Shown piece after piece: positions 7,405 to 41,620 of a stretch of 64,000 nt of DNA. The position numbers were made by a program, and so were the translations under genes. The first letter of the stretch is position 1, and each line of letters begins with the position of its first letter. The notes below the pieces were generated by a model. That model was not told the DNA's origin. It ran no database searches and worked only from the letters and a program-made list of their open reading frames with translations. This DNA comes from Clostridia bacterium (GTDB lineage Bacteria > Bacillota > Clostridia > Christensenellales > Borkfalkiaceae), in NCBI GenBank assembly GCA_017625565.1, contig JAGAKN010000014.1, positions 1 through 64,000 on the forward strand, in the 5' to 3' direction.

Positions 7405-7445
7405 TGCCTAAATAGGCAACGTTTCGTTTGTTGCCTAAAGGAGGT
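7405..7445 (+). promoter_or_regulatory. possible three-segment alternative hairpin leader next to the ribosome site
   Basis: Three short segments can pair in two exclusive ways. TGCCTA (7405-7410) pairs with TAGGCA (7413-7418). Alternatively TAGGCAAC (7413-7420) pairs with GTTGCCTA (7430-7437). The second hairpin ends directly before the AAAGGAGG ribosome site of the lipoprotein gene at 7449. Pairings are read from the sequence; a switch role is inference. Confidence 0.4.
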
Positions 7446-7448
7446 TGT

Positions 7449-10319: not shown

Positions 10320-10331
10320 GAAAGGTTTTTC

Positions 10332-10347
10332 AAAAGTGTCGAAAAAA
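10332..10347 (+). promoter_or_regulatory. candidate Spo0A box upstream of the lipoprotein promoter
   Basis: The 16-mer AAAAGTGTCGAAAAAA includes TGTCGAA (10337-10343), which equals the core of the Spo0A binding box. It lies 11 bases upstream of a -35 element. The same 16-mer occurs once more, in the intergenic region at 52943-52958. Binding is inferred from the motif only. Confidence 0.35.
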
Positions 10348-10358
10348 GTGATATTTAT

Positions 10359-10388
10359 TTGACAAACACGGATAAAAAGTGATATAAT
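10359..10388 (+). promoter_or_regulatory. sigma-A promoter for the 1662-aa lipoprotein gene
   Basis: TTGACA at 10359-10364 and TATAAT at 10383-10388, 18 bases apart. The leader then holds a small hairpin CGGGC/GCCCG (10396-10410) directly followed by the AAGGAG ribosome site. Confidence 0.8.
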
Positions 10389-10424
10389 AAAAAGACGGGC
10401 GTCTAGCCCGAAGGAGTAATCAGA

Positions 10425-13400: not shown

Positions 13401-15413
13401 AACTTCACGGTACGCGGTGTAGAACACGGCGAATACGTCATGATGTACAACCAAGCGCTTCCTGGAGTATTCGTCACGTTGGACGGTTATGGTAAAGCAT
13501 CCGTTTACACGAAAGAAAAGAACGCGGAAGGCGTATACGAAAACGTCTATATTGATGAAAACGGTACGTACACGCAAAACGGTAGCGTAGTGACGGTCAA
13601 GTATCAAGACGGCGATAATGCGATGGAATTGGACGGCGAGTTCGCGATTTATAGCATCAGCGGTTCGCAAGTGCCCGTATACTTGGTACTTTGTGCAGAC
13701 GCAGCGAGAACGTACGTCGATAAAGACGATTGGTCGGTTATGACACTTGATAAGAGTGGTAATGCGACGAAATATAGCACGGACGGCAAGAAGTCGGTTG
13801 GCGCATACGTTTTGATCACGGATAAGTTGTTCTATTATGCGGACGACGAAGGCGCGAACATTTATAACTACGATGTCATTAACGGGGTTGTCACCGTAGT
13901 AAAATCGCTTGAAAACCGTGCGTACTACACGCCGAATCTGGAATCCTTGCAATTCACGAAATACGGTTTTGCTATTTTCAACGGGGTAGATCGTTATTAT
14001 TATAATATGGAAGGCAGTAAAGTCGTTCTCTATCGTCAAGATTTCAACGACGAGAATGCAAACGCTTACGGCTTTATTACGGAAGATATGGGCGTATTGA
14101 CCGATCAACCCGTCACCTATCAAGGAAAAACCTATTACTTCAACGACGGATACAATTGTGAATTCACGCGTGAGGCGGAATCGAAGGATAAGTATCCCGT
14201 TTTGGTAGAACAAGGGAAAACCGAAGAAGAAGACGTCTATGGTCTGTTGGAAAAACTCACGTTTGCGCCTACGGGGGCAGCGAATTTCTCCAACGTGGAA
14301 GGTTCGGTATATATCAACGGCGAAAAATACCGTTGCTACATTACTAGACAAGTACACGAAGATAACACGGTAGAAATGTATCTTCTTGTCGGTAAATACC
14401 GTTTTGACATCAACGTCAACTACACGGGGCTTGATAATGATGGCAATAGTACGAGTACGTACGAAGTCACCCGTATGCGTTATATCAATACGTTGGATTC
14501 GTATGTGTATATGTATTATCTCTATCAATACTATATGTACTACCAAATTATGATCGATAACGTATTCGGTACGGTTTATATGACCACGGAATTCAACGAA
14601 GACGGCTCTGAGCAAGAAGGTGGCCCGTACTTCACGGCGGAATTCGGCGAACTGTCGAACATTGTAGATTCGAACGGCGATCCGATCGAGTTTGTAAACT
14701 TGAAGTATACGGACGAAGAAGACGTGATTACGGTGGATACCGTGGGTAAAGACGGCTACACGTATCGCTTGTATATCGGAAAACAATACAATCAAATGCT
14801 CAGACAATACGGATATTTGATTTATGCTTTGACGCGCGTACAAGAATTTACTACTGCCGATTCGGAATATACCGTAAACGTTGAACGTGTAATTACGACT
14901 GAAGCTAGCGGTATTTATCCCGGTTATCCGATGTTCTTGAAACTCACCAAGGGCACGGAAGTGATCCAAGCGGAATTGAACATCTTCGTTGACGGCGGAG
15001 TGGAATACGTCGTAAGAACGAGAGAAACTACGACGGACGGTAGCCAAGGCAAGATTACGGCTACGACGTATTATAAGATTCTCTTTGAAGAAGAAAAGAA
15101 CACGTCGATCGAAGGCAGCGAAGAAGAAACCACGAATATCGTTGCTGCGTACAAGTCGGTGACGGTCACGGAAATGACGACCACGACGATGTATACGGAA
15201 GACGAAAGCTCGTACGTAGACATTACGTCGGAGGGGATTCGTTTGATGTCGGTAAACGGCACGTTGTATTTGGCGGTTGAATGCGCGTACGACGAAGCTA
15301 CGAATACGTACACGATCAAGACAAGCAACGGGAAATCGTTTACCGTTCAAGTGCTTGAAGACAATCAAGTCGCGATCACGGAAGTAGTGGAAGAAGAAAG
15401 CAAGCAAGCATAA
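10425..15413 (+). CDS. giant lipoprotein with InlB B-repeats and repeated beta modules
   Basis: 1662 residues. The signal peptide ends in the lipobox ISGC. Residues about 39-345 hold three or four Listeria-Bacteroides (InlB B) repeats, recognisable by endings such as ITYYAKW and TTLYGVW. The remaining 1300 residues are rich in Tyr, Gly, Asp and Thr and contain a repeating module of roughly 60-100 residues with the theme LxLDGxG...GxY...V....DGxxxxF; at least five copies are visible (for example near 12180, 13210, 13450 and 13740). No catalytic motif was recognised. It is likely a surface adhesin or binding protein. It has its own promoter and probably leads the following genes. Confidence 0.75.
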   Translation: MRKSVKILLLAMLTALVSITFVFISGCGKKSGDGGNKSELSFELNGGAGVEDVTVDKGEEFELPIPVYEGYIFDGWYTNAQFTGSPVEKVVVDGDITYYAKWSKGYKVNFELDGGSLSTTYVYVKEGANVYDAVNAYVPTKDGVQFGAWFNGDTELAKNLRMPTTGLTLTAKYKVPYTVELWGQNLAQTDYEKIGESVIGYEYAGVSFTSTQAMTGFKEIQHANSVTTKTISETTSENVFKHYFDRESYTVRFDANYPDGSKSEVKTETVVYGNAVVIPSNYVAEGYCLIGWATSANGTIVYESNFLAKNLYNADTTEVEDITFNPERNTTLYGVWKKGATDMFGSDDYIYLFDATSEEIYLSRGEVFFKGDYNAEKKTFRFIVNGKAKFPGKVINDELYIYTDNNRAGNKTRYENGKGLVETEYIYVDKDNEISYFVEGEGGLNTESKGTYIVDENGYYVATFTEGPKAGETLTMLVGTYQEKPVYILRNEAEYTMGDLTMFGEYNGMIVPYNIYQIRLTGFGTALFNQGMSAASYYATMEDGVITLKNEYGMTYLVGKLMEKEGLKGYAVYDSNYDKTYTTVEGGTLVLDGTYNATYTLGNEQVTGLYTVEKSIFGSTIVTLKKDGTYCKFLITSEEVDLGDGQKTTQYTVERKHADYAEYNYRNDENYWYAPMLVINNEKAGDAIVYGYTKTGEYVEVSRGTYEETDKKGIYKYTAKTFANAEDLVDVGTTPWDITTITSFVFAIDTVTTNYKLYYWYSAEVGGEAENFDVVYTSAEEEKLTLVAGLAIYEGKGQLIIGAYEKSESGTMLRMAEGSGYKYFEINETEKTILTLAYAPYMAYLLGADGSMRKDAALTFDGKGGVTYSVLETVDGESKQVDYEGVETSTGTTAFDYYIYQFTCTSDSTKSFTYLKLTMNSGSTCIAVYNSDYNGVYESNDGMLTLDGYGFIAEFASSNGTKYRGVYMIAEENVIVLMAEDTTLYFDLKAERNFTVRGVEHGEYVMMYNQALPGVFVTLDGYGKASVYTKEKNAEGVYENVYIDENGTYTQNGSVVTVKYQDGDNAMELDGEFAIYSISGSQVPVYLVLCADAARTYVDKDDWSVMTLDKSGNATKYSTDGKKSVGAYVLITDKLFYYADDEGANIYNYDVINGVVTVVKSLENRAYYTPNLESLQFTKYGFAIFNGVDRYYYNMEGSKVVLYRQDFNDENANAYGFITEDMGVLTDQPVTYQGKTYYFNDGYNCEFTREAESKDKYPVLVEQGKTEEEDVYGLLEKLTFAPTGAANFSNVEGSVYINGEKYRCYITRQVHEDNTVEMYLLVGKYRFDINVNYTGLDNDGNSTSTYEVTRMRYINTLDSYVYMYYLYQYYMYYQIMIDNVFGTVYMTTEFNEDGSEQEGGPYFTAEFGELSNIVDSNGDPIEFVNLKYTDEEDVITVDTVGKDGYTYRLYIGKQYNQMLRQYGYLIYALTRVQEFTTADSEYTVNVERVITTEASGIYPGYPMFLKLTKGTEVIQAELNIFVDGGVEYVVRTRETTTDGSQGKITATTYYKILFEEEKNTSIEGSEEETTNIVAAYKSVTVTEMTTTTMYTEDESSYVDITSEGIRLMSVNGTLYLAVECAYDEATNTYTIKTSNGKSFTVQVLEDNQVAITEVVEEESKQA

Positions 15414-15456
15414 ACATTTTGTAAAAACAAACCAAACATTGGAAAAGGTAAGAATA

Positions 15457-18400
15457 ATGAAGAAAGTACGGAAAATTGCAATTAAATCTCTCGCGTTTTG
15501 TATGGCGACGAGTCTACTTTCAGGCGTTTGCGTAAGCAGTTTTGCCGATAAAGACGACGAATTTTTATCGGCATCTGCATCGTCCGCCATTCGGAAAACG
15601 GACGCGCCGATCGATATGCGTACGCAGGACTATTTCGATAGTTCGGTCGTGTATAAACTTCCCGATACGGTATCGGAAACGCAAGAATTGTCTGTAATCG
15701 TCAATATGCATACGGATGCGTTGTTGGACGTTTACGCGACCATGGATACGAGCAAGACTGCGAGCGAATACGTGAACTCCGCGCAAGCAAAGAAACGTGC
15801 GTCGGCAATCGATTCGCAACGCAACGCGTTGATTAAAAAATTGAAAGCGTCGGGTGTCAAATACACGTTGGGCGAAGAATACGACACGGTGTTAAGCGGT
15901 TTTGAAATTACGATCAAAGCAAAGGATTTCCAAGCGGTTGGCGAATTGTTCCGTGGCGACGCAACGCTAATTATTGGCGAAACGTATTTGCCGGCGGATT
16001 CGCAAGTAATCACCAACGACGTTGACGTTTACGAAACGGGTATTTTCGATACTTCTAACGCCGAATACCAAGGCGACGGTGTCGTCGTTGCGGTATTGGA
16101 TAGCGGTTTGGACTATACGCACTCCGCATTTAGCGTAAACAACTTTACGACGACGACGGAAGCATTTACACTCTCCAACGTTTCGGCAAAGGTTTCGCAA
16201 ACTTCGGCGGCGAAGTTTACGGCAGGTTTGAAAGGCGAAGACGTCTATTTGAATAAAAAGATCCCGTTCGCGTACGACTATGCGGACAAGGATACGGACG
16301 TATTGCCCACGAACTCCGAACATGGTACGCACGTTTCGGGGATTATCGCAGGGAAAGACGATCGTATCACGGGGGTTGCTCCCAACGCGCAACTCGCGTT
16401 CATGAAGGTATTCTCGGACTTGTCGGACGGTGCGAAAAGCTCTTGGCTTATCGCGGCTTTGGAAGACTGTGTGACGCTTGGTGTAGACGTCGTTAACATG
16501 TCGCTTGGCGCAGGTTGCGGGTTTGCGCGCGAAGAAGATAATAAATATATCAACGAAGTATACGACAATATCCGTAATGCGGGGATTTCGCTCGTCGTTT
16601 CGGCGGGGAACGCGAACAACTCGGCAGTTGGTTCGGAAAAGAACGGGAACTTGGGCTTGACGTCCAACCCCGATACGGGTACGGTCGGTTCGCCGTCTAC
16701 GTACGCGGCGTCGATGTCCGTTGCTTCGGTTGACGGGGTAAAAACTCCGTACTTAGTGCATAACGGCGAGATCATTTACTTTAGAGAAGCAACCAACTCG
16801 GCTGCGGAAACGAAGGATTTCGTTGACGAAATTTTAAAAACCAAAGGCGACAACGTACAAAGCTTTGATTTTGAATACGTTGCAATCCCGGGGATCGGGC
16901 GTTCGGCGGACTATCCCGAAGAAGCGTCTTTCTATGCAGGCAAGATCGTGCTTGTAAAGAGAGGGGAAACTACGTTCGAAGATAAGGTACATATCGCGTT
17001 GAAAGAAAAGGGCGCGGCAGGTATCATTATTTATAACAACGTTTCCGGGGATATATCCATGTCCGTAGGTCACGACGTCGGTGCAGTATGTTCGATTTCG
17101 CAAGACGAAGGCGAAAAGCTCGCGGCGGCAGGCTCGGGGATAATCAGTATCAATAGATCGCAAGTAGCAGGTCCGTTTATGTCTGACTTCTCGTCGTGGG
17201 GGCCTACTTCCGATTTACAAATCAAGCCTGAAATTACGGCGCACGGTGGGGAAATTCTTTCGGCTGTACCCGGGCAAGATTACGACGTACAATCGGGTAC
17301 GTCCATGGCAGCGCCCAACCAAGCAGGCGCAACGGCGTTGATCCGTCAATACGTAAAATATAGCGGTGTATTCGGCACGGATTTGACGACCAATGAAATT
17401 ACTTCGATTGTCAATCAATTGATGATGTCCACGACGGATATCGTACGCAATAAGAACGGCTTACCGTATGCGGTTAGAAAGCAAGGTTCGGGGCTTGTAA
17501 ACATCCTGAAGGCGACGACTGCGGAAGCGTATTTGACGACGTTTAACAAAGACGGTTCGACGATGGATAAAACCAAGCTTGAACTTGGCGACGACAAGGA
17601 CAAGACCGGGGTTTACGATATGAAATTCGCGATCCATAACATTAGCGGTTCGGCGGTAGCGTACGAGGTTAGCTCGGTGATTCTTACGGAAGGCGTTAGT
17701 GAAACGTACACCAGCCACAGCGAACAAACGGTCACGCAAGACGGGTATTTGTTGAGCGGTACGACTACGACGGTGACGGCGGTAGACGGTGGATCGTATA
17801 ACGGGAACACCGTGACGGTCGGCACAGGCGGTACGGCAACGGTTAGCGTACGCATTGTGCTTTCGGACGCGGATAAAGCGTATATGAACAAGTCGTTTGC
17901 AAACGGTATGTACGTAGAAGGATTTATCAAGCTTACCAGCGATTCTTTGGTGAACTTGAACGTGCCCATGTTGGCATTCTACGGCGATTGGACGCAAGCG
18001 CCGATTTTCGACGAAGAATATTACGATACGAATAAGGACGAACTCAACAAAGGGTTGGACGTTGGCGATAAGTTGATGGCAGACTCGTACGCAACGCGCG
18101 CTATCGGTGGTTTGTATACCGACTATATTGCAACGCTCGGTTCTTATTACTTCGAACAAGATCCGTCGGCGACTCCGATTGCGGCGGACAAAGAACATAT
18201 CGCAATCTCCAACCAAAAGAACGGAATGAATTCTTCGATCAACGCACTTCGCTACGTTTGGGCAGGGTTGCTCCGTAATGCGAAGGAAGCAAACATTACG
18301 ATCGTAGAAGATTCAACGGGCAAGAAGATTTTCGACGTGACGGATTATAATATCCGCAAATCGTATAGCAACGGCGGGAATACGATTTATTCGTCGTCGA

Positions 18401-21400
18401 TTGAAATCGAATTCGATACGCTTGCGCATGAATTAAAGAACAATACGAAATATACCGTGACGGTGACGACGTATCTCGATTACTGCGATAAAGACGAACA
18501 AAGCAACGCGCGGAACGTATTCCAGTTCCCGATGTATATCGACTTTGAAGCGCCTACGGTCACGGACGTTTCCTATCGTGCGGAAACGGATAAGGCGACC
18601 AAGAAAACCAAACTCTTCGCGGACGTAAGCATTTATGATAACCATTACGCGATGGGTATGCAGGTTGGACAAATCGTTATCAATGAAGATCCCGAATCGA
18701 TTAAACAAGGCTATAAGTTTAGCATGAATACGTTCGGGAAATATATGACGCCCGTTTATTCGTCGTATAACTCTACGTCGAAAGTGACGATAGAATTGAC
18801 GGATTACGTTTCGCAATTGAAGAAATCGGCAGGAATCGTATACCACGAAAACGGCACGTACGATATTGTGGAAGGTATGAACAGTTTCATCGTATCTTGC
18901 TACGACTATGCGATGAACTCGGCAACCTACGAAATCAACTTGCCCGACGACGTATTACAAATGTACTTCTCGAAAGACGAAATCCGTTTAAGCCCGAACG
19001 AAACGTTGGATATTTCGACGGTCTTGAACGTATTCCCCAACGAAACTTGGATTGAATCGTTGGAATTCGTTTCGTCGGATAAAGACATTGTAGAAGTCGT
19101 CAACAAAACGATTTTGGCGAAAGAAAGCGGTACGGCGACGATTACGGCGATCGGGTATGACGAAAACGGCGTGAAAAAGACGGATACCGTGACGGTAAAA
19201 GTTCTTGCGGAAGGCGATGACGGCTACGTCGGCGGATATACCGTTCCCGAAATCAATCGATTTATGGTGAAGAGCTATAAAGTCAATAAAGCGTATTACA
19301 GCGTTTCTTCCGAAGAAAGAGAAATCGGGCTGACGGGTGGCGAATACGAATTCGACGGCGAATACAACTTATCGATGTTCCCGTCGGAAAGCGTGACGAT
19401 CAAACCGCTTTTGGAATCCTATTTCCCTGAAGCAACGAATATCACGTATAAAGTCGGCAACAAGAAGATTGCAACGGTTGAAAAAGATCCGGAAAACCCG
19501 CAATACGGTATTATCGTAGCGCAGGAAGAAGGTACGACGATCGTCAATATTAACGTGACGTTCAATGGAAAATCGACGTTGCACTCTGGCAGAGTGACCA
19601 TTACGGTTAAAGATCCGTATACGACGAACGCAATGTACTTGATGTCGTATAAAGGGCTTGGCGGAACGGTCGAAATTCCCGACGATCGGGGTATCACGAC
19701 GATCAGCGCGTATGCATTCTCGAACTACGAATACGTAGATAAGGATTTGAGCGCAGGGGACGTTATTGACGAAGAAGATCCGTACTACATTAAACAAATG
19801 TACATCGGGGAAGATACGATTAAGAAAATCATCATTCCCGAAGGCGTGACGACGATCGAAAAATACGCGTTTGCCAAATTGACGGGGTTGACGGAAGTCG
19901 TACTTCCTTCGACGTTGACGAGAATCGGCGTAGGCGCGTTCCTTGGTTGTACGAACTTAAAAACCATCAATCTCGAACACGTAAAATTCATCAACGCAGA
20001 CGCCTTTAGGGGGTGCGCGTTAGAATCGTTGGATCTCGTAGACGATAAAGACGATCCCAACGACGTAGAAGGTCAACTTGTTGCAATCAGCAACTACGCG
20101 TTCGCGGATTGTAAACTCAGCTATATTAAATTGCCTGCATCGACGCAGTCGATTGCAATCGGTTCGTTCTATAACAACGAATTCTTGACTAGTGCAGATT
20201 TCATCGCTGCGAAAGTCAAGATCGGGCGTGGCGTATTTAGCGAATGTTCGCGATTAGAACGTCTTTACGTCAATGCAGTGGTTATTCCTGCGAGTGCGTT
20301 TGAAAACTGCACGGCACTCGCGGAAGTATCGCTCGGAAAAGACGTAGCGGTTATCGGGGAGTACGCGTTTGCGGGTACTTCGGTCGCGACGTTCGATTTC
20401 CCGAACGGAAACGAAACGTTCACGTTAGAATCGGGCAATACCTTGATTTGCAAAGGCGACGAATTGGTTGTCGCTGCGCCCATGTTGTCGGGTACGGTGA
20501 CGACGACGGCGACGTCGATCGGCGCAGGTGCGTTTGCAGGGAACACCAAGATTTTCCGCGTGATTGCAAACAATGCAACGAAGATTGGCGATTATGCGTT
20601 TTCCGATTGTACGGAATTGAGTAAGGTAGAACTCAACAGCGTGACGGAAATCGGCAATTATGCGTTTGCTGGTACGAAACTCTCGCAAACGCCTGATTTA
20701 AGCAAGGTGACGGAAATCGGCAATTATGCGTTCGTAAGCACGCAACTTGCTCAAGTATCGATTGCAAACGATACGAAGGTTGGTGCGTATGCGTTCGCGT
20801 ATAATACGAAATTGACGACGGTTGCCATTGGCAACGGCGTAGAATTGGGCGAAGGCGTATTCTATTGCCCGTTGGGGAATTATGCGTTTGATCCCACTAG
20901 CGCAGAAAATAAATACGGTATTGAAGAACCGTATTACAGCCATAAGAAATATAAGGTATATAACGAACTCGGCGAAGTAGTCGAATCTTTCGATTACTAC
21001 TATTACAACTATGAACTTGGCGTATACTCCGCGTTGCAATCGTTGACGATTGGCGACGGCGTGACGATTGGCGATTTTGCATTCGCAGGGAACGCAAAAC
21101 TTTCGGCAGTCACGCTTGGTGGTGGTGCGAAGATCGGTATGGGCGCGTTCTTTAACGATGCGGCGCTTACGACGATCGATTTGTCGCAAGCAGAAAGCAT
21201 CGGTTCGCAAGCGTTCAGCGGTTCGAGAGCGCAAGCGTTCCGCTATGAAGACGGTATTCCGATGTTTGCGTTCGAATACAAGTACGCAAACGGCGAACTC
21301 TATATCGTAAATTACGAATACTCGACGCTTGCTCCCGCTTTGGCGAACGTGGATCTCACAAACGTGACGGAAGTTGCGGAAGGCGCGTTCATGAACAACT

Positions 21401-22893
21401 ACGCGTTGACGAACATCACATTCGGTGCGAACGTAAAAGAAATTAAAGGCTCGGCATTCGGCAACTGTTTGTCGTTGACAACGGTCACGCTTCCCGAACA
21501 ACTCGTGAAAGTAGGCGAGTACGCATTCTACGATACGGCTTTAACGAAGGTGGACCTTTCCAACGTAGACGAAATTGGTGCGTATGCGTTCGCATGGACG
21601 AGCGTAGCGGAAGCGAAAGCTAAAGACGGCGCAAAACTTGCAGACGGCGCTTTCTATAACTGCTTTAACTTGGCAAGCGTACAAGGTATGGATGCGGTAA
21701 GCTCGATCGGGGCTTACGCGTTCCAAGGCACGGCACTTACGAAATTGACGTTGACGAAAGTGACGGAGATCGGGGATCTCGCGTTTGCGGAATCGAAAGT
21801 GACCGAAGTCACGTTCGGCGATCAGTTAAAGACGTTGGGAGAAAACCCGTTCTACGCTTGTGAAATTGCGACGTACGGTAAAGAGAAAAACGTAGAATTC
21901 AACGGCGCGGTTGTAGGCGTTGAGAGTATTGAAACGTATGCGATCAGCGATACGGTGCAAGTAATGAACGGCGTATTGTATCAAGCAGTACCCAAGGGCT
22001 TGGAATTAATTTCCTATCCGATGATGAAAGCGGACACCGATTTCGTGATCGAAGAAGGTACGGTACGGATTAGCGCGAGAGCGTTCGCTGGTGCTGTACT
22101 TGAAAACGTCACGTTGCCGTCGACGTTGTTGGCGTTGGGCGATAAGGCGTTCTACGGTTGTGAGAATTTGTCGGTGGTTGTATTCACTAGCTATAATGCT
22201 CCGATTTTAGAAGAAGAGTACGATCTTTCTTACGTACAACCTTCCAACTTGCCGATGCCCACGTATTCGGGCGACGCATACGGGCTTGGCATTACCAAGT
22301 ATCATATGTGGAATACGGGTACGTCGAACAGCATGTATTTCTTCGGCGCGAACTTCGTAGGCAATATCGGGCATATTCCGGCAAATCTTGTCATGGTACG
22401 TCCTGCAAACGGGCAAGGCTATAACACGTTTATCTTGTCGCAATATTTCGGAACGACGGTTAATGGTGTCAACGCGGCTACGGAAGCGACGGTTAAGGTC
22501 ATTGCAATGATCGCGAAATTGCCGGCGGAAATCACGTTAACGCACGAAGCACTTGTCGTTGCGGCGCGTAAAGCGTATGATGAAATCCCGTCTTTGGAAC
22601 AAAAGGCGTTGGTAAGCAACTACAGCAAGCTCGAAGAAGCGGAAACGACGATCGAGTACTTGAAAGGACGCGACAATCCGGGCGACGATCCGATTGTAGA
22701 AGAACCGGAAAAAGAACCGAGTGGTTTTGCGAAGTTTATGAAAGAAAACTGTGTTTCGATCATCATCGCAGGCGTAGCGATTGTAGGTTCGGTTGCATTC
22801 GTAGTGATTACGGGGATTCTCCGTAAGAAAAAATGCTTAGCGTTAGATCAACAAACGACAAACGAAAACAATAACGAAAATGAAGAAGCGTAA
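15457..22893 (+). CDS. giant cell-surface subtilase (S8) with PA insert, Big2, LRR_5 repeats and membrane anchor
   Basis: 2478 residues. The start at 15457 is chosen over the in-frame TTG at 15439 because AAAAGG lies upstream and a clean signal peptide follows. Domains in order: an I9-like propeptide (about 50-190); S8 protease with Asp215 (VLDSGLD), His289 (HGTHVSG) and Ser616 (SGTSMAAP); a protease-associated domain inserted at about 430-560; lactocepin/C5a-peptidase-like beta domains; a Big2-type domain (about 1170-1245); a long LRR_5/BspA array (about 1395-2235); a small helical FIVAR-like segment; a membrane helix (about 2431-2455); and a short tail. The full catalytic triad predicts an active extracellular protease. 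The neighbouring peptide importer suggests it feeds peptide uptake. Confidence 0.9.
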   Translation: MKKVRKIAIKSLAFCMATSLLSGVCVSSFADKDDEFLSASASSAIRKTDAPIDMRTQDYFDSSVVYKLPDTVSETQELSVIVNMHTDALLDVYATMDTSKTASEYVNSAQAKKRASAIDSQRNALIKKLKASGVKYTLGEEYDTVLSGFEITIKAKDFQAVGELFRGDATLIIGETYLPADSQVITNDVDVYETGIFDTSNAEYQGDGVVVAVLDSGLDYTHSAFSVNNFTTTTEAFTLSNVSAKVSQTSAAKFTAGLKGEDVYLNKKIPFAYDYADKDTDVLPTNSEHGTHVSGIIAGKDDRITGVAPNAQLAFMKVFSDLSDGAKSSWLIAALEDCVTLGVDVVNMSLGAGCGFAREEDNKYINEVYDNIRNAGISLVVSAGNANNSAVGSEKNGNLGLTSNPDTGTVGSPSTYAASMSVASVDGVKTPYLVHNGEIIYFREATNSAAETKDFVDEILKTKGDNVQSFDFEYVAIPGIGRSADYPEEASFYAGKIVLVKRGETTFEDKVHIALKEKGAAGIIIYNNVSGDISMSVGHDVGAVCSISQDEGEKLAAAGSGIISINRSQVAGPFMSDFSSWGPTSDLQIKPEITAHGGEILSAVPGQDYDVQSGTSMAAPNQAGATALIRQYVKYSGVFGTDLTTNEITSIVNQLMMSTTDIVRNKNGLPYAVRKQGSGLVNILKATTAEAYLTTFNKDGSTMDKTKLELGDDKDKTGVYDMKFAIHNISGSAVAYEVSSVILTEGVSETYTSHSEQTVTQDGYLLSGTTTTVTAVDGGSYNGNTVTVGTGGTATVSVRIVLSDADKAYMNKSFANGMYVEGFIKLTSDSLVNLNVPMLAFYGDWTQAPIFDEEYYDTNKDELNKGLDVGDKLMADSYATRAIGGLYTDYIATLGSYYFEQDPSATPIAADKEHIAISNQKNGMNSSINALRYVWAGLLRNAKEANITIVEDSTGKKIFDVTDYNIRKSYSNGGNTIYSSSIEIEFDTLAHELKNNTKYTVTVTTYLDYCDKDEQSNARNVFQFPMYIDFEAPTVTDVSYRAETDKATKKTKLFADVSIYDNHYAMGMQVGQIVINEDPESIKQGYKFSMNTFGKYMTPVYSSYNSTSKVTIELTDYVSQLKKSAGIVYHENGTYDIVEGMNSFIVSCYDYAMNSATYEINLPDDVLQMYFSKDEIRLSPNETLDISTVLNVFPNETWIESLEFVSSDKDIVEVVNKTILAKESGTATITAIGYDENGVKKTDTVTVKVLAEGDDGYVGGYTVPEINRFMVKSYKVNKAYYSVSSEEREIGLTGGEYEFDGEYNLSMFPSESVTIKPLLESYFPEATNITYKVGNKKIATVEKDPENPQYGIIVAQEEGTTIVNINVTFNGKSTLHSGRVTITVKDPYTTNAMYLMSYKGLGGTVEIPDDRGITTISAYAFSNYEYVDKDLSAGDVIDEEDPYYIKQMYIGEDTIKKIIIPEGVTTIEKYAFAKLTGLTEVVLPSTLTRIGVGAFLGCTNLKTINLEHVKFINADAFRGCALESLDLVDDKDDPNDVEGQLVAISNYAFADCKLSYIKLPASTQSIAIGSFYNNEFLTSADFIAAKVKIGRGVFSECSRLERLYVNAVVIPASAFENCTALAEVSLGKDVAVIGEYAFAGTSVATFDFPNGNETFTLESGNTLICKGDELVVAAPMLSGTVTTTATSIGAGAFAGNTKIFRVIANNATKIGDYAFSDCTELSKVELNSVTEIGNYAFAGTKLSQTPDLSKVTEIGNYAFVSTQLAQVSIANDTKVGAYAFAYNTKLTTVAIGNGVELGEGVFYCPLGNYAFDPTSAENKYGIEEPYYSHKKYKVYNELGEVVESFDYYYYNYELGVYSALQSLTIGDGVTIGDFAFAGNAKLSAVTLGGGAKIGMGAFFNDAALTTIDLSQAESIGSQAFSGSRAQAFRYEDGIPMFAFEYKYANGELYIVNYEYSTLAPALANVDLTNVTEVAEGAFMNNYALTNITFGANVKEIKGSAFGNCLSLTTVTLPEQLVKVGEYAFYDTALTKVDLSNVDEIGAYAFAWTSVAEAKAKDGAKLADGAFYNCFNLASVQGMDAVSSIGAYAFQGTALTKLTLTKVTEIGDLAFAESKVTEVTFGDQLKTLGENPFYACEIATYGKEKNVEFNGAVVGVESIETYAISDTVQVMNGVLYQAVPKGLELISYPMMKADTDFVIEEGTVRISARAFAGAVLENVTLPSTLLALGDKAFYGCENLSVVVFTSYNAPILEEEYDLSYVQPSNLPMPTYSGDAYGLGITKYHMWNTGTSNSMYFFGANFVGNIGHIPANLVMVRPANGQGYNTFILSQYFGTTVNGVNAATEATVKVIAMIAKLPAEITLTHEALVVAARKAYDEIPSLEQKALVSNYSKLEEAETTIEYLKGRDNPGDDPIVEEPEKEPSGFAKFMKENCVSIIIAGVAIVGSVAFVVITGILRKKKCLALDQQTTNENNNENEEA

Positions 22894-32086: not shown

Positions 32087-32128
32087 AACAAAATATGCTG
32101 ATTGTTTGTGAAGTTTGTGAAAAAATCC

Positions 32129-32157
32129 TTGACAAAATGCGGAAATCGTTATACAAT
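32129..32157 (+). promoter_or_regulatory. consensus sigma-A promoter for the zinc-ribbon gene
   Basis: TTGACA at 32129-32134 and TACAAT at 32152-32157 with a 17-base spacer. This places the transcription start near 32164 and rules out the longer in-frame reading from 32095. Confidence 0.85.
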
Positions 32158-32187
32158 ATTAGAAAGAAATCCAAAGGTGGAATCATT

Positions 32188-32421
32188 ATGAAATCGAAGA
32201 AAAAAGTTGCAGTTATGCCGGTACAAACGCAAGAAGAAGTAAAAAATTACGTAGTAAATTGCCCGAAATGTGGGGCGGCATTACAGATGAAAACGGGCGG
32301 TGTTGCATATCTTTGCCCTGTTTGCAATACCTTGTTGCGCATTCGAAAAGGCGAGAAGTTGGTAAAAGACGTTTCTTCGCAACTTGTCGCGGAAACGTAC
32401 GTTTCTACCTACGAAGATTAA
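32188..32421 (+). CDS. small stand-alone zinc-ribbon protein
   Basis: 77 residues. The start at 32188 is set by the promoter at 32129-32157 and the AAAGGTGG ribosome site. It has a basic N-terminus, then two Cys pairs (CPKC and CPVC) spaced as in a zinc ribbon, then a basic segment RIRKGEKLVK. The segment from the first Cys pair to the basic tail matches the C-terminus of the membrane protein at 38689 in order and spacing (CPxC...LQ.K...CPxCN.....RK..K.VK). It is a single gene between two terminators. Its role is unknown; nucleic-acid or protein binding is plausible. Confidence 0.8.
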   Translation: MKSKKKVAVMPVQTQEEVKNYVVNCPKCGAALQMKTGGVAYLCPVCNTLLRIRKGEKLVKDVSSQLVAETYVSTYED

Positions 32422-35431: not shown

Positions 35432-35962
35432 ATGAACATTTGGCATGATATTTCTTTCGAACGGATTACCACTAAAAGTTTCGAAGCGTTTATTGAAATA
35501 CCCAAAGGCTGTAAGGTAAAATACGAGTTGGACAAAGAAACGGGTTGTTTGAAAATGGACCGTGTTTTATTTACGTCCACGGTGTATCCCGCAAATTACG
35601 GTTTTATCCCGAAAACGTATGCCGAGGACGAAGATCCTTTGGACGTTTTGGTGTTGTGTGGGGAGGCGCTTTATCCGACAACGCTTGTACGTTGTTATCC
35701 GATTGGGGTAATCAAAATGATCGACAACGGCTCCTTAGACGAGAAGATTATCGCCATTCCGTTCGGTGATCCCACGTATAATTCTTATTACGATATACAG
35801 GAGCTCCCGAAACACGTATTTGAAGAAATGATGCACTTCTTCGAGGTTTACAAGACTTTAGAGAACAAGCAAACGGCGGTAAAGGAAATTTGTCATCGCG
35901 ACGAAGCGATGGAATGCATTCAAAAGAGCATTGAATCCTACAAAGAGAAATTCAAAAAATAA
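35432..35962 (+). CDS. ppa: family I inorganic pyrophosphatase
   Basis: 176 residues, the normal bacterial length. It hydrolyses pyrophosphate to two phosphates. The metal-binding signature EDEDPLDVLVL (about 66-76) carries the family's three Asp pattern, and the N-terminal EIPKGCKVKYELDKETG and FTSTVYPANYGFIP segments match the active-site strands. It has its own promoter and ribosome site. Cytosolic; pulls biosynthetic reactions such as tRNA charging forward. Confidence 0.96.
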   Translation: MNIWHDISFERITTKSFEAFIEIPKGCKVKYELDKETGCLKMDRVLFTSTVYPANYGFIPKTYAEDEDPLDVLVLCGEALYPTTLVRCYPIGVIKMIDNGSLDEKIIAIPFGDPTYNSYYDIQELPKHVFEEMMHFFEVYKTLENKQTAVKEICHRDEAMECIQKSIESYKEKFKK

Positions 35963-36017: not shown

Positions 36018-36046
36018 TTGACATCACGCGCGAAAAAATGTATAAT
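36018..36046 (+). promoter_or_regulatory. perfect-consensus promoter of the three-paralogue membrane gene cluster
   Basis: TTGACA (36018-36023) and TATAAT (36041-36046), spacer 17. It lies downstream of the longer in-frame start at 36006, so that start is excluded. Confidence 0.88.
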
Positions 36047-36119: not shown

Positions 36120-37457
36120 ATGAAAAAGTACAAAATTAAAACAGTACCGAACAAACAAAGCGTTTACTTAAAGAAACGTATTGCAAAAACGCGCTCACGG
36201 GCGAAACTCGTCGGGCTTTTGTATTTGTTTGCGACGATGGCGTTGGCGGCGGCAGCGTGTTTGCCGTTATTGGATATCGGTACGCTTTCTCAACTGCAAG
36301 CAACGAAGTTCTACAAGGTCTTTAAAGGAATAAAGCTCGAACATTTAAAGACGGCGCGCGGGGTTTATGTTTACGTACCCTACGTATTATACGGCTTGTT
36401 GTTGTTTGTGTTGGCGATCAACGTTTTGAAAGCACTTTCCAAACTCAACTGGTTGTTTAAAAAGAAAGCGAGTAAGACGTACGGCTTTAACCGCAACGTT
36501 TATGCGATGGAAGATTTAAGCCGTATTTTCTCGGGATCGTTCGCGGTGATCATTTTGATGAATTTCGTCATTTGCGTTTTGGCAGGTTTGCCCGTCAAAT
36601 CGTTGGAGTTTGCAAACGTGAAATGGCTCGTTTTCGTGATTGCAGGTGGGCTTGCAGTACATTTCCTTTGCGGACTTTGGGGTGGCAAGGCGAGCTTGTT
36701 CGTTGTACACGAAGGTGTCGGAATTGTTGAACAAAAGAGAGATTGCGGTAGATTTGCACCGTTTATACGCAACTTGTTGCAAGTCGGCGCATCCTTTGCA
36801 ATGTTGTATTTCTTCCTGAGAGGAACAACGCTTGCAGGTTGTATCGACGCATTGATGGAAAAGAGCGCAATTAAGGAATACGTATTGCACAAAGATACGA
36901 TGCTCTACTTTATTGCAAGCGCTGTGCAAGTGCTTATGATCGTTTGGTTGATGGTGCTTGTAAAACATGCGACGGCTTCGACAGAATATGGAATTGAAGG
37001 TAGACATGCTGACGGTATGATGAATTTCCGAGTATTCTCTTTCTTCACCTTCCTTTCGGTGATCGGCGTATTGGCATGTAGATACTTATTCGGGGAAGCG
37101 AATTTCTTCTTTGGCGTTTGGTCACCACTTGAAAAGCTTTCTAGTTCGGAAAAATGGTTTGAGCTTTTGAAAGAAACGAGTTTGGATTTCTTGATCATCG
37201 GCGCGATTGCATTCGGTATGTTTATCATCGAATTGATTATGCACGGCGCACCCCGTACGAACGAAGAAAAAATGTTAAAGAAAGCAGGCATTAAGACTAC
37301 GATGGACGTTTCGGGCGCGGAACAAATGAAACCTGCGGTAATGGTAGGGGACGAAATGGAGCTTGATGATTTTCTTTCGGCGAACTACAATCCGAACTAT
37401 CCTACGGGACAACCGAACGGTTATCCGCAAAGAAATACTATGGAATATAACTACTAA
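36120..37457 (+). CDS. unrecognised eight-helix membrane protein, paralogue 1
   Basis: 445 residues; start chosen by the downstream promoter and the AGAAGGAGAAG ribosome site. About eight hydrophobic segments are visible. A basic N-terminus of about 30 residues precedes the first helix. Motifs shared with the next two genes are IFSGSFA before helix 3, HFLCGLWGG at the end of helix 4, RFAPFIRNLLQ before helix 5, and LVKHATASTEYGIEG after helix 6. The C-terminal tail of about 65 residues is polar and Pro/Asn/Tyr-rich (NPNYPTGQPNGYPQ). No known family was recognised. First of three tandem copies, so the products may form one complex. Confidence 0.85.
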   Translation: MKKYKIKTVPNKQSVYLKKRIAKTRSRAKLVGLLYLFATMALAAAACLPLLDIGTLSQLQATKFYKVFKGIKLEHLKTARGVYVYVPYVLYGLLLFVLAINVLKALSKLNWLFKKKASKTYGFNRNVYAMEDLSRIFSGSFAVIILMNFVICVLAGLPVKSLEFANVKWLVFVIAGGLAVHFLCGLWGGKASLFVVHEGVGIVEQKRDCGRFAPFIRNLLQVGASFAMLYFFLRGTTLAGCIDALMEKSAIKEYVLHKDTMLYFIASAVQVLMIVWLMVLVKHATASTEYGIEGRHADGMMNFRVFSFFTFLSVIGVLACRYLFGEANFFFGVWSPLEKLSSSEKWFELLKETSLDFLIIGAIAFGMFIIELIMHGAPRTNEEKMLKKAGIKTTMDVSGAEQMKPAVMVGDEMELDDFLSANYNPNYPTGQPNGYPQRNTMEYNY

Positions 37458-37487
37458 TTCCGTATAACGAATGATAAAACGAATTTT

Positions 37488-37513
37488 GTTCCCCTGAAAC
37501 ACTTCAGGGGAAC
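37488..37513 (+). promoter_or_regulatory. hairpin between paralogues 1 and 2
   Basis: Perfect eleven-base arms GTTCCCCTGAA (37488-37498) and TTCAGGGGAAC (37503-37513), loop ACAC. It lacks a clean T-run (followed by GTGTGTTTG), so it may be a weak terminator or an mRNA processing/stability element setting the level of the downstream genes. Confidence 0.6.
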
Positions 37514-37539
37514 GTGTGTTTGAAATTATGGGGAAAAAT

Positions 37540-38652
37540 ATGAATATAATCAACTCGAAAGCGCTTGCATTGAGAAAAAAAGTGCGTTCGGCGCATCGTA
37601 AAATCAAGTTTGTCGGGACGTTGTATTTACTCGGCACGATTGCTTTGCTAGGGCTGACGGCGCTCGTTGCCGTTATGCAAATCGTAGGCGCGGACGGGCA
37701 ACTCGTTTCGGTGGACGTTTTACGCGTATGGGAGTTGTTGAAGTGGCAAAAACCTTTGCAAGTGTTGCCGTTGACGGCGTTTATCGTTGCTTGTTTGTAC
37801 GTTTTGTTATTGGTGACACTACTTTGCAACGTGATCCGTTGTTTGTCGAAAATGCGCGGTTTGTATTGCGAAAAAGTGACGCGTGAAAACGGATTTAACG
37901 AGAATTTCGTTTATTTACAGACGATTGGAAAAATTTTTTCGGGTTCATTCGCGATGCTTTGCAACGTGTATTTGTTGGCGTTTCTACTTGCTGGAAAAGA
38001 CGGCTTTGAATGGCAATTTTCGGGCTTGATTACGCTTGGCGTAGGGCTTGTATTCCATTTTTTGTGTGGCTTAACGGGTGGTAAGGTGCGCTTGTTTAGT
38101 TGTGACGTATCGAAGGCCGACTACGTAGAACACAAACGGGAAATCGGTAGAGTTGCGCCGTTTTTTCGCAACCTTTTGCAACTTTGCATTATGGCAGGGG
38201 TGTCCGTCTTGCTTTGGAAAATAAACGTCTTTCCCGTAGTCTTTTCGGAAATCGTTATCAATGGGTTTGACGGAGTGCTTGCCGACAAGGATTTGCTAAT
38301 CGAATGCGGATTGCAACTCTTGATGACGCTATTCGTGTTTGCTTTAATTGCGCACGCCACGTCCGATCGGGAATTTGATCGCGACGGGAAAGAGGCGCAG
38401 GGAGCGAAACGCTTCCGTGGATATTCCTTGTTGTTGTTTTTGGTGGCAATTGGTTATACCGTTTGGACGTTTATCGCCGACGGGAAAGTGTTGCTTCCGA
38501 CGCTTTTAGCGGTGCTAGCGTTAGCGGGATTGTTGGTAGATTGCTTTGTGGAAATCAAGGCGACTTCGGACGAGGACGCGTTAACAGGGAAGAAAAAGAA
38601 AGTGCGCACAGGGGTTATTTTTGACACCGTTAGCTACGAGGGCAGGATTTAA
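37540..38652 (+). CDS. unrecognised eight-helix membrane protein, paralogue 2
   Basis: 370 residues. In-frame starts at 37516 (GTG) and 37528 are possible, but the ATG at 37540 has GGGGA at good distance and gives the same 32-residue lead to the first helix as paralogue 3. It has about eight hydrophobic segments. Shared motifs are IFSGSFA, HFLCGLTGGKVRLF, RVAPFFRNLLQ and LIAHATSDREFDRDG. It is shorter than its neighbours because it lacks their long C-terminal tail and ends with a short basic stretch. Not recognised; likely a partner of the two flanking paralogues. Confidence 0.8.
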   Translation: MNIINSKALALRKKVRSAHRKIKFVGTLYLLGTIALLGLTALVAVMQIVGADGQLVSVDVLRVWELLKWQKPLQVLPLTAFIVACLYVLLLVTLLCNVIRCLSKMRGLYCEKVTRENGFNENFVYLQTIGKIFSGSFAMLCNVYLLAFLLAGKDGFEWQFSGLITLGVGLVFHFLCGLTGGKVRLFSCDVSKADYVEHKREIGRVAPFFRNLLQLCIMAGVSVLLWKINVFPVVFSEIVINGFDGVLADKDLLIECGLQLLMTLFVFALIAHATSDREFDRDGKEAQGAKRFRGYSLLLFLVAIGYTVWTFIADGKVLLPTLLAVLALAGLLVDCFVEIKATSDEDALTGKKKKVRTGVIFDTVSYEGRI

Positions 38653-38688
38653 AAACGAAAGATAAAAACAAGCTTATGGAGACGTAAT

Positions 38689-40128
38689 ATGAAAACATAC
38701 GAATCGATTGGAGAAAAGACGATAAGACGGATCGGAAAAGAACAACGCAAGGCGCGTAATGTCGGTTGGTTCTATTTTTTGGGGATCATCGCATTGGCAA
38801 CGTTGGCGTTTTTCCCGTTTTTAGAAATCGGCGGTGAAAAATGGTCTGCGATAGACTATTTTAAACAGTATAAAAACTTTGTAAAGGCTTTGCCGAAATT
38901 GTCTAAGCTTTTGCTCGTGTACGTATTTTTATCCTTGTTTTTGATTGCGATTTTATGCAATGCGTTGAAAGGACTTTGCGGGCTTGGGACGCTGAATAAA
39001 CGCTCGATGGCGAGAAAGGACAGAAACCGCGATGCTATGGAAAAAATGGGCAAGATCTTCTCGGGTTCGTTTGCGTGCTACGTGATCTTCTATTTCCTGC
39101 ATTTTCTTTTCTTCGGCTGGAAAGATGATGCGATAGTGAAAGTGGAATTGACGACGTTTGGTTATCTTACGTTGGCGGTCGGGGTTGGAGTACATTTCTT
39201 TGGTGGACTGATCGGCGGAAACGTTCGCAGATTCCAAAACAACAAAACGGAGGACGAAGCGAAACGCCCGTACGGAATATTCTTGTATTTCTTGGCGAAC
39301 GTATTGCAGTACGTTGCCGTTGCAGGGATTTTGTATTTCTTCTTACAGGTGAGCATTGTATACTTATACGTATTCTCTGTGATTTCGCAGGACAGTTTCT
39401 TGGTTTGCAGTGCAAAAGAATGGATTTATCTTGGATTGCAAGGGGCTACGTTATTGAGCGCGCTTGTTTTGGTGAAACACGCGACGGCGAATACGGAATA
39501 CAATTTCTTTGGTCGTGACGGGAGCGGAATGAAGAATTTCCGTGTGTTCTCGATTTTAACGGCACTGTTTGCGATAGGGTGTTTCGGTTATTATTGGTAC
39601 GAAACAGCGGATGCAGGAAAAGCGAATTATCCGTACGAATTTTTGATCGTGGCAGGGATTGCTATTGCGAGTTTTATATGCGAATGCATTTTCAAGGCGA
39701 ATTGGAACAAAGAGGAAATGGAAACGTCGGAATGCGATGCGTCTATGCAACCGCTTGCGCAACCGCCCGTACAGCAAGCTCCCCAAGCCTATCCGCCTGC
39801 GCCTATCGTCAACGTACAAGCGCCATATCCCGTGCCGTATTATCTTCCTACCCCGAACGTTGGCGCAGTAGAAGACTCCGTTGCGGAAGACGAGAAAGAA
39901 CCGGAAACGGTTTCGGAATGGCAAATTCTTTGCCCTACTTGTAAAAAGCGTTTGCAAGTAAAGGATTCGAAGAAATACCATTGTTGTCCTGCGTGCAACG
40001 GCGTATTTACGTTGCGCAAACACAAGCGTAAAATGGTAAAGCCCGGGGTTTCGCAATCCAACCGAGTGCAAAAAGAAGAACAACCGCTTTGCTTGGTGGA
40101 TTTTAATCAAGATCCGTTTGCGAAGTAA
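38689..40128 (+). CDS. eight-helix membrane protein, paralogue 3, with C-terminal zinc ribbon
   Basis: 479 residues. The membrane part (about 1-345) repeats the family pattern: IFSGSFA, HFFGGLIGGNVRRF, LANVLQ and LVKHATANTEYNFFG. A Pro/Gln/Ala-rich linker (about 355-395) follows, then a zinc ribbon with CPTC and CPAC pairs (about 409-435) and a basic tail. The ribbon closely resembles the separate 77-residue protein at 32188. The ribosome site is GGAGA. The topology prediction (even helix number, basic N-terminus) places the ribbon in the cytosol. Function unknown; signalling or protein binding is a guess. Confidence 0.85.
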   Translation: MKTYESIGEKTIRRIGKEQRKARNVGWFYFLGIIALATLAFFPFLEIGGEKWSAIDYFKQYKNFVKALPKLSKLLLVYVFLSLFLIAILCNALKGLCGLGTLNKRSMARKDRNRDAMEKMGKIFSGSFACYVIFYFLHFLFFGWKDDAIVKVELTTFGYLTLAVGVGVHFFGGLIGGNVRRFQNNKTEDEAKRPYGIFLYFLANVLQYVAVAGILYFFLQVSIVYLYVFSVISQDSFLVCSAKEWIYLGLQGATLLSALVLVKHATANTEYNFFGRDGSGMKNFRVFSILTALFAIGCFGYYWYETADAGKANYPYEFLIVAGIAIASFICECIFKANWNKEEMETSECDASMQPLAQPPVQQAPQAYPPAPIVNVQAPYPVPYYLPTPNVGAVEDSVAEDEKEPETVSEWQILCPTCKKRLQVKDSKKYHCCPACNGVFTLRKHKRKMVKPGVSQSNRVQKEEQPLCLVDFNQDPFAK

Positions 40129-40189: not shown

Positions 40190-41620
40190 ATGGCAAAAGA
40201 CAATCAATTTGTAGAACAAATCGCCGATATTAACGCGGATTTCCCGCAATGGTATACGGACGTTGTATTAAAGACGAAACTGGTGGACTACGGCCCAGTA
40301 AAAGGGACGATGGTTATCCGTCCTTACGGCTACGCGATTTGGGAAAACATTCAAAATGAGATGAATGCTCGTTTCAAAAAACAAGGCGTTGAAAATGCGT
40401 ATTTCCCGTTGCTCATTCCCATGAGTTATTTCACGAAAGAAGCGGAGCACGTCGAAGGATTCGCGCCCGAAGTAGCGGTCGTGACGGTAGCTGGTGGGGA
40501 AACCCTTGCAGAGCCGTTGGCAATCCGTCCTACGTCCGAAACGATTATCGGTACGATGTGCGGAAAATGGATTCAATCGTATCGCGATTTGCCGATGAAA
40601 GTTAATCAATGGTGCAACGTAATGCGTTGGGAAAAGACAACGCGTCCGTTCTTGAGAACAAGCGAATTCTTGTGGCAGGAAGGGCATACCGTTCACGCGT
40701 CGTCCGAAGAAGCGCAAGAAGAAACAATGCAAATGCTTGGCGTATATAAAGAGTTTGCGGAAAATTGCCTTGCAATCCCCGTAATGACGGGACGCAAGAC
40801 GGAAAAAGAAAAATTCGCGGGCGCAGTCGCTACGTACACGATGGAAGCAATGATGCGCGACGGGAAGAGTTTGCAAGCCGGCACGTCCCACTATATGGGG
40901 CAAAATTTCGCGACGGCGTTCGATATTCAGTTCTTGGATAACGACGGCGCGCATAAGACGGCGTTCACGACGTCTTGGGGGGTTTCTACCCGTTTGATTG
41001 GCGCGATTATTATGACGCATGGCGACGAGCGTGGCTTGCTGCTTCCGCCCGTAGTTGCGCCTATTCAATGCGTTATCGTACCCATCGCAGCAAGAAAGGG
41101 TGGCGTCATCGAAGCTTGCGAAGCCTTAAAAGCGGAATTGGAAGGGGCAGGTATTCGTGTGACGCTTGATAACAGCGATAACAGCCCTGGTTGGAAGTTC
41201 AACGAATGGGAAATGAAAGGCGTACCTGTACGGATCGAACTCGGACCGCGCGATATCGAAGCAGGGAAGATGCTTTGTGCGCGTCGGGATACGCTGGAGA
41301 AGACGGAATACGCGCTCTCGGATGCAGTGGAGAGCGTGAAAACGTTGCTTGCAACGGTGCAAAAGGATATGTTGGAAACGGCGCGAAAACGTCGGGAGGA
41401 ACGTATTGTATACGCAGACGATATGGCTGGTATTCTTGCAGGTGTAGAAGCAGGAAACTTCGTCAAGGCAGGTTGGTGTGGTTGCCGTGCATGCGAAGAC
41501 AAAGTGAAGGAACAAACGGCGGCTACGGCGCGGGTTTATGCCGAAGGCGAAACCAAAGAAACGTGCGCGGTATGCGGAGAAAAAGCCAAACACGTATTGG
41601 TTTACGCAAGAGCGTACTAA
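40190..41620 (+). CDS. proS: prolyl-tRNA synthetase, archaeal/eukaryotic type
   Basis: 476 residues, the short form without the bacterial editing insert. It charges tRNA-Pro. Class II motifs are visible: motif 2 around VMRWEKTTRPFLRTSEFLWQ and the GTSHYMGQNFATAFD segment that distinguishes this type, with motif 3 near the HGDERGLLLPP region. The C-terminal domain has a four-Cys zinc site (CGCRAC and CAVCG) and ends in Tyr, as in this type. The ribosome site is AGAGAGG; a strong terminator follows. No promoter was clear upstream, so read-through from the membrane-protein cluster is possible. Confidence 0.97.
   Translation: MAKDNQFVEQIADINADFPQWYTDVVLKTKLVDYGPVKGTMVIRPYGYAIWENIQNEMNARFKKQGVENAYFPLLIPMSYFTKEAEHVEGFAPEVAVVTVAGGETLAEPLAIRPTSETIIGTMCGKWIQSYRDLPMKVNQWCNVMRWEKTTRPFLRTSEFLWQEGHTVHASSEEAQEETMQMLGVYKEFAENCLAIPVMTGRKTEKEKFAGAVATYTMEAMMRDGKSLQAGTSHYMGQNFATAFDIQFLDNDGAHKTAFTTSWGVSTRLIGAIIMTHGDERGLLLPPVVAPIQCVIVPIAARKGGVIEACEALKAELEGAGIRVTLDNSDNSPGWKFNEWEMKGVPVRIELGPRDIEAGKMLCARRDTLEKTEYALSDAVESVKTLLATVQKDMLETARKRREERIVYADDMAGILAGVEAGNFVKAGWCGCRACEDKVKEQTAATARVYAEGETKETCAVCGEKAKHVLVYARAY

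Follow-up and report, generated by a model that had tools for sequence, protein, structure and literature searches.

Tandem membrane paralogues with a single terminal zinc ribbon in a genus of uncultured gut Clostridia

A locus in an uncultured gut Clostridia genome encodes three tandem paralogues (A, B and C) of a membrane protein family, here termed M, with a single zinc ribbon at the end of the last protein. The occurrence of one ribbon per locus, the grouping of the copies into separate clades and the restriction of a tail motif to copies that are not last together suggest a hetero-oligomer with a cytosolic docking end. We tentatively propose, as a history that is plausible but somewhat short of probable, that an ancestral pair of an exported protein (E) and a ribbon-bearing M lost E, and that M triplicated, yielding a hetero-oligomer of A, B and C that bears a single cytosolic ribbon. 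Judged from sequence comparison, the M family and the E+M module appear to be new; this newness does not extend to their function. The features of the locus are listed by their positions in the window, the whole 64,000-nucleotide stretch of DNA that was analysed.

35432 to 35962, + strand: ppa, soluble inorganic pyrophosphatase, upstream neighbour (PF00719, E 1.1e-59; synteny)
36018 to 36046, + strand: promoter TTGACA-N17-TATAAT (sigma-A consensus) at the front of the A-B-C operon
36120 to 37457, + strand: gene A (P0001, 445 aa), eight-helix core, tail motif, Asn/Pro/Tyr-rich end, no ribbon
37353 to 37376, + strand: acidic-aromatic tail motif EMELDDFL of A, fitting [DE]-[VILMF]-[DEN]-x3-[YF]-[LFI]
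37487 to 37514, + strand: hairpin with a 12-bp stem at the A-B junction (z -4.4)
37540 to 38652, + strand: gene B (P0002, 370 aa), eight-helix core, short basic tail, no ribbon or tail motif
38689 to 40128, + strand: gene C (P0003, 479 aa), eight-helix core, Pro-rich linker, C-terminal zinc ribbon
39919 to 40035, + strand: zinc ribbon of C (C415-P-x-C418 ... C433-P-x-C436), the operon's sole ribbon
40190 to 41620, + strand: proS, prolyl-tRNA synthetase, downstream neighbour (ProRS-C_1, tRNA-synt_2b; synteny)

Three reading frames starting at 36120, 37540 and 38689 had been proposed in an earlier note on this DNA and were confirmed. Their proposed paralogy was borne out by BLASTP, with every pair sharing 31% identity at E values between 1e-31 and 1e-36 (A/C, 2e-36; A/B, 4e-36; B/C, 7e-32). 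The strict motifs that the note had described occurred in the same order when the proteins were aligned, but their exact wording did not hold, since B contains AHATSD in place of KHATA and C contains NVLQ in place of RNLLQ. Family M was defined by an eight-helix core with the blocks GFNRN, IFSGSF, HF-GL-GG, E-KR--G, RNLLQ, HAT--TEY and G-GMKNFRVFS, and A, B and C all fell within the alignment and tree of 70 such cores. Compared with the nearest relative, the sheep-colon MAG RGIG5336 (L021, also L004), dN/dS was 0.086 for A, 0.118 for B and 0.147 for C, against 0.03 for ppa and proS on either side. The three genes are genuinely coding and under purifying selection. Strongly diverged middle copies with large insertions were detected in two other loci by profile search only (L054:7826-9616, 596 aa; L040:6575-7936, 453 aa). 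Elsewhere in the window, very large reading frames of 963, 1662 and 2484 aa follow one another on the + strand at 7428-22893.

The perfect promoter reported ahead of the genes was verified as an exact TTGACA-N17-TATAAT sequence, which is rare by chance (two exact matches in the window against 0.03 expected) and is preserved at 12 of 12 positions in at least 21 related loci. Across the genome 71 exact copies were found and none of a reversed control, indicating that this lineage uses consensus promoters and making the site at 36018 credible. The hairpin between A and B, which has a similar counterpart in L021, may partly terminate transcription and thereby set the A:B:C ratio. Strong hairpins unrelated to that of the window were observed at the A-B junctions of L025, L034 and L040.

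The earlier note had predicted eight helices in a family that it did not recognise, and both points were supported. AlphaFold2 models built from input alignments of only 16 rows contained eight long helices in C (P0003; pLDDT 71.5, pTM 0.66) and in the core of A (P0001; pLDDT 78.0, pTM 0.82). Both termini are predicted to be cytosolic, in agreement with the loop charges (Lys plus Arg inside versus outside: 24 versus 13 for A and 24 versus 10 for C). The profile searches that might have placed M in a well-studied family returned no such match: the core matched zero models in Pfam or NCBIfam and none in PHROGs, and the Pfam matches across a 31-member alignment were zinc ribbons at the tail. Searching PDB sequences with the profile of 70 cores returned only a designed helical protein at E 0.25, and Foldseek searches with both models gave nothing at E<=0.001 among PDB or viral models. 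PADLOC profiles of anti-phage defence did not match A, B, C, E or the sister M proteins described below, and no M relative was found in the phages and viral contigs searched. Neither the M family nor the E+M module was described in the literature searched, which lay mostly outside subscription papers and preprints. The three cytosolic loops look alike by eye; an internal 4+4 or loop-repeat duplication was rejected, as hhalign found nothing.

Of 57 genomes in the genus, 45 contained M, as one to three tandem copies; among the 12 of high quality, 10 did. The grouping of three genes was upheld by a survey of gene order: rather than never occurring together, three copies were found in 12 of the 39 complete loci, with two copies in 7 and one copy in 20. 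In nearly all genomes where both ends were present the M locus lay just downstream of ppa. The next gene is proS in most derived loci and, in many loci with a single copy, a SpoIIE gene in convergent orientation. In G054 (L119) ppa is directly followed by SpoIIE with M missing between them, and this absence from some good genomes indicates that M is not essential. Single-copy loci are common and viable, so the genus can do without a set of three subunits. In the tree of the 70 cores, of which the C-terminal half was also treed separately, first, middle and last copies formed largely separate clades (9 label changes against 37.8 after shuffling), and the single-copy loci fell outside a derived group of mostly position-specific clades.

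Exactly one zinc ribbon was found in 37 of the 39 complete loci and none had two. The two loci without a ribbon were both single-copy, so that 18 of the 20 complete single-copy loci carried one. The ribbon was always in the last or only gene, and none of 31 non-last copies possessed it. In the two-copy loci L033, L042, L055, L056 and L057 the last, ribbon-bearing gene has a B-clade core, and the singles L022, L023, L032 and L036 join A-clade cores to a ribbon, indicating that the ribbon tracks position and not core ancestry. In C, four cysteines (C415, C418, C433 and C436) form two CPxC knuckles that were invariant across 20 aligned ribbons, and the tail is therefore classed as a zinc ribbon that is predicted to bind zinc. 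When recombination between tandem cores deletes internal sequence, the last gene automatically retains its 3′ end, so contractions of the array alone do not prove selection, and the array data represent perhaps two to four independent events. However, the absence of the ribbon from 31 non-last copies that descend from ribbon-bearing singles requires loss.

Upstream in the window, at 32095-32421 on the + strand, a small protein carries a ribbon of this type (E 8.4e-10); apart from it and the tail of C, the genome has no clear match to the type. Its orthologue adjoins nagB in L043. Conceivably this protein is a free ribbon, either a competitor of the M complex or an accessory to it.

The description of the tails in the earlier note stood for A, which is Asn/Pro/Tyr-rich, and for C, which has a linker plus ribbon, but not for B, which was described as having none and yet closes with a tail of about 35 residues that L021 shares with hardly a change. 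The acidic-aromatic motif was present in 21 of the 31 non-last tails, against 0.15 expected after tail shuffling, and in none of 41 last or single copies; the pattern was derived from the same tails on which it was counted, making this count descriptive and not predictive. The motif is missing from A-clade singles, where M is without a partner copy. It is also absent from B of the window, unlike B in most relatives. Taken together, the distribution fits a docking peptide that would come into use only alongside another M copy. Among other tail features, the linkers preceding the ribbon in L030, L031, L035, L038, L046, L047, L060 and L093 contain a block resembling Q-C-x-[TS]-Q-P-[AG]-V-F-M-Q-P-N-G-Q-P-[IV]-M-V-M-P-M that is far better conserved than the remaining linker, and L044 and L045 have very long tails of repeats such as TPISINMPAAKAQ that extend past the contig end.

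These observations bear on whether the copies act together. The copies could instead be separate homo-oligomers, tandem duplicates that have diverged in tail and substrate, with the one-ribbon rule arising as a by-product of recombination. Consistent with this, just over half of the complete loci (20/39) encode a single M, the array tolerates reduction to A-only, C-only, A+B or B+C, and the A-B hairpins in several loci could uncouple expression. However, a ribbon that is absent from every non-last copy yet present in nearly all complete single-copy loci is hard to reconcile with independent homo-oligomers, as are the singles with A-type cores, which lack the motif and mostly carry a ribbon, such that tails follow position over ancestry. 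We consider separate homo-oligomers, the leading alternative, rather unlikely.

Through weak matches in sister genera, M relatives were identified in G112, G147, G094 (g10), G550 (g7), G195 (g9) and G157 (g6), and one of this sister type was also found within the genus (G027). Alignment of the genus M profile to the sister M profile by hhalign gave a probability of 98.2%, E 2.7e-14, with 263 columns in register. Sister E+M modules in the same taxonomic family (L081, L082, L113-L117) thus encode an eight-helix core homologous to genus M, but in contrast to M of the window they have no ribbon, are single-copy, lie elsewhere in the genome and have E directly upstream; their neighbours vary. One M-like frame (L118:4647-5540, - strand, in G520 of g9) has a TM2 domain (PF05154, E 1e-10) as its fusion partner in place of a ribbon. 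Weak order-level matches (L098-L101) proved to be unrelated reading frames matching by chance, and the match in G163 (L083) lay in a region with no credible M frame. A class-wide search with the sister profile returned nothing at E<=1e-4 in 393 genomes, a sample that held no positive control.

Adjacency of E and M was observed in g1, g6, g7, g9 and g10. In the sister loci E directly precedes M and has 340-405 residues; its N-terminus is a membrane anchor or signal and its body is polar. Within the genus, the single M of L031, L035, L038, L046, L047, L049, L060 and L093 has an E gene immediately upstream, encoding about 280-345 residues. Genus-wide searches gave strong E matches for 11 of 57 genomes. 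None of these was among the 19 multi-copy genomes, E was not detected in the genome of the window, and borderline matches were confined to G020 and G051. The profiles of genus E and g10 E were not significantly alike by hhalign, and E is therefore called the partner by position; a shared C-terminal N-[LI]-[ND]-NT pattern only suggests that the two are homologous. By eye, a LolA/LppX-like fold is suspected for E. A PDB search with the E alignment gave matches to S100 proteins that were judged to be chance.

The sister proteins also inform the possible activity of M. Within the 70 cores the most conserved residues (A numbering) were E204, R207, R217, N218, Q221, H181 and E289, of which E204, N218 and E289 were invariant and R207, Q221 and H181 were at least 93% conserved, and they sit in or beside the three cytosolic inter-hairpin loops. 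Such near-invariance at the cytosolic membrane face would suit an enzyme whose active site is drawn from H181, E204, R207, R217, N218, Q221, H283 and E289. However, the polar motifs that are invariant in genus M are mostly lost in sister M, where most of these residues are unconserved despite strong fold-level alignment, and searches of Pfam and PDB gave no enzyme relative. An enzyme is therefore improbable, and the failure of sister M to keep the genus-invariant polar residues leads us to favour a non-catalytic role as a scaffold, sensor or transporter.

Returning to the hetero-oligomer, the ancestral unit would have consisted of E plus one ribbon-bearing M, and in the lineage of the window E would have been lost and M triplicated. 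A, B and C would be co-transcribed as subunits of one membrane assembly in which their helices may form a scaffold or conduit, and the single ribbon of C would act as a cytosolic docking head. The acidic-aromatic peptide on A, and on B in most relatives, could serve as a docking tag within the complex, most simply directed at the ribbon or core of C. A broader reading, which we regard as possible if doubtful, is an undescribed envelope system in which an ancestral pair of E and ribbon-bearing M gave way, in one lineage, to a self-contained hetero-oligomer of three M paralogues. Its copies would compete for or share one cytosolic ribbon through short docking peptides, so that one interchangeable ribbon would cap a variable membrane ring.

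Genomes from uncultured organisms commonly contain orphan membrane families. M is strongly promoted and selected in most genomes of one uncultured gut Clostridia genus, with no entry in the libraries searched. Single, double and triple states coexist within this genus, with tails swapped between cores, and should the one-ribbon rule and the docking motif be signs of assembly, they would provide a clean natural experiment on the transition from a homomeric to a heteromeric membrane complex. The E+M pair offers a two-gene handle for finding function in other genera.

Among known systems, M invites comparison with LetA/PqiA (PF04403), inner-membrane lipid transport proteins that likewise combine multiple helices, cytosolic zinc ribbons and an adjacent gene for an extracytoplasmic partner. 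M could accordingly be pictured as a lipid transporter working like LetA/PqiA, with the exported E in place of LetB, and the best Foldseek matches by probability for the P0003 model included claudin-19 (0.69) and LetA (9n8w_A, 0.51). The two four-helix claudin-like halves that characterise LetA were only a weak fold match in this model, and the 50 matches listed for P0001, the better model, included neither LetA nor claudin. Moreover, hhalign of M against E. coli LetA gave a probability of 0.1%, no PqiA match above the cut-off was found in 21 relatives in a search whose E. coli control was positive, the 4+4 duplication was not seen by profile, and an MCE partner is missing. The one ribbon of M follows the last helix at the C-terminus, whereas the CxxC pairs of LetA form ribbons at the N-terminus and between the membrane halves. 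Membership of LetA/PqiA was not supported by profile (PF04403), hhalign, ribbon placement or repeat search, and a LetA-like mode of transport is highly improbable. It is very unlikely indeed that M is an eight-helix lipid scramblase of the Xk-related type: Xkr4 and Xkr9 gave the highest or nearly the highest query TM-scores among the 50 PDB matches listed for both models, but these scores (0.26-0.28) fall far under 0.5, E was 0.35-1.8 and there is no sequence relation. The Lipocone superfamily (PMC12419801) was considered for its pairing of zinc ribbon and membrane domains, and no specific link to M was found. The tail of C resembles Pfam zinc ribbon families (e.g. PF13248, PF13717) in having two CPxC knuckles about 15 residues apart and a Pro-rich linker, but most matches fall under the curated cut-offs and the core to which this ribbon is attached is unlike any described family.
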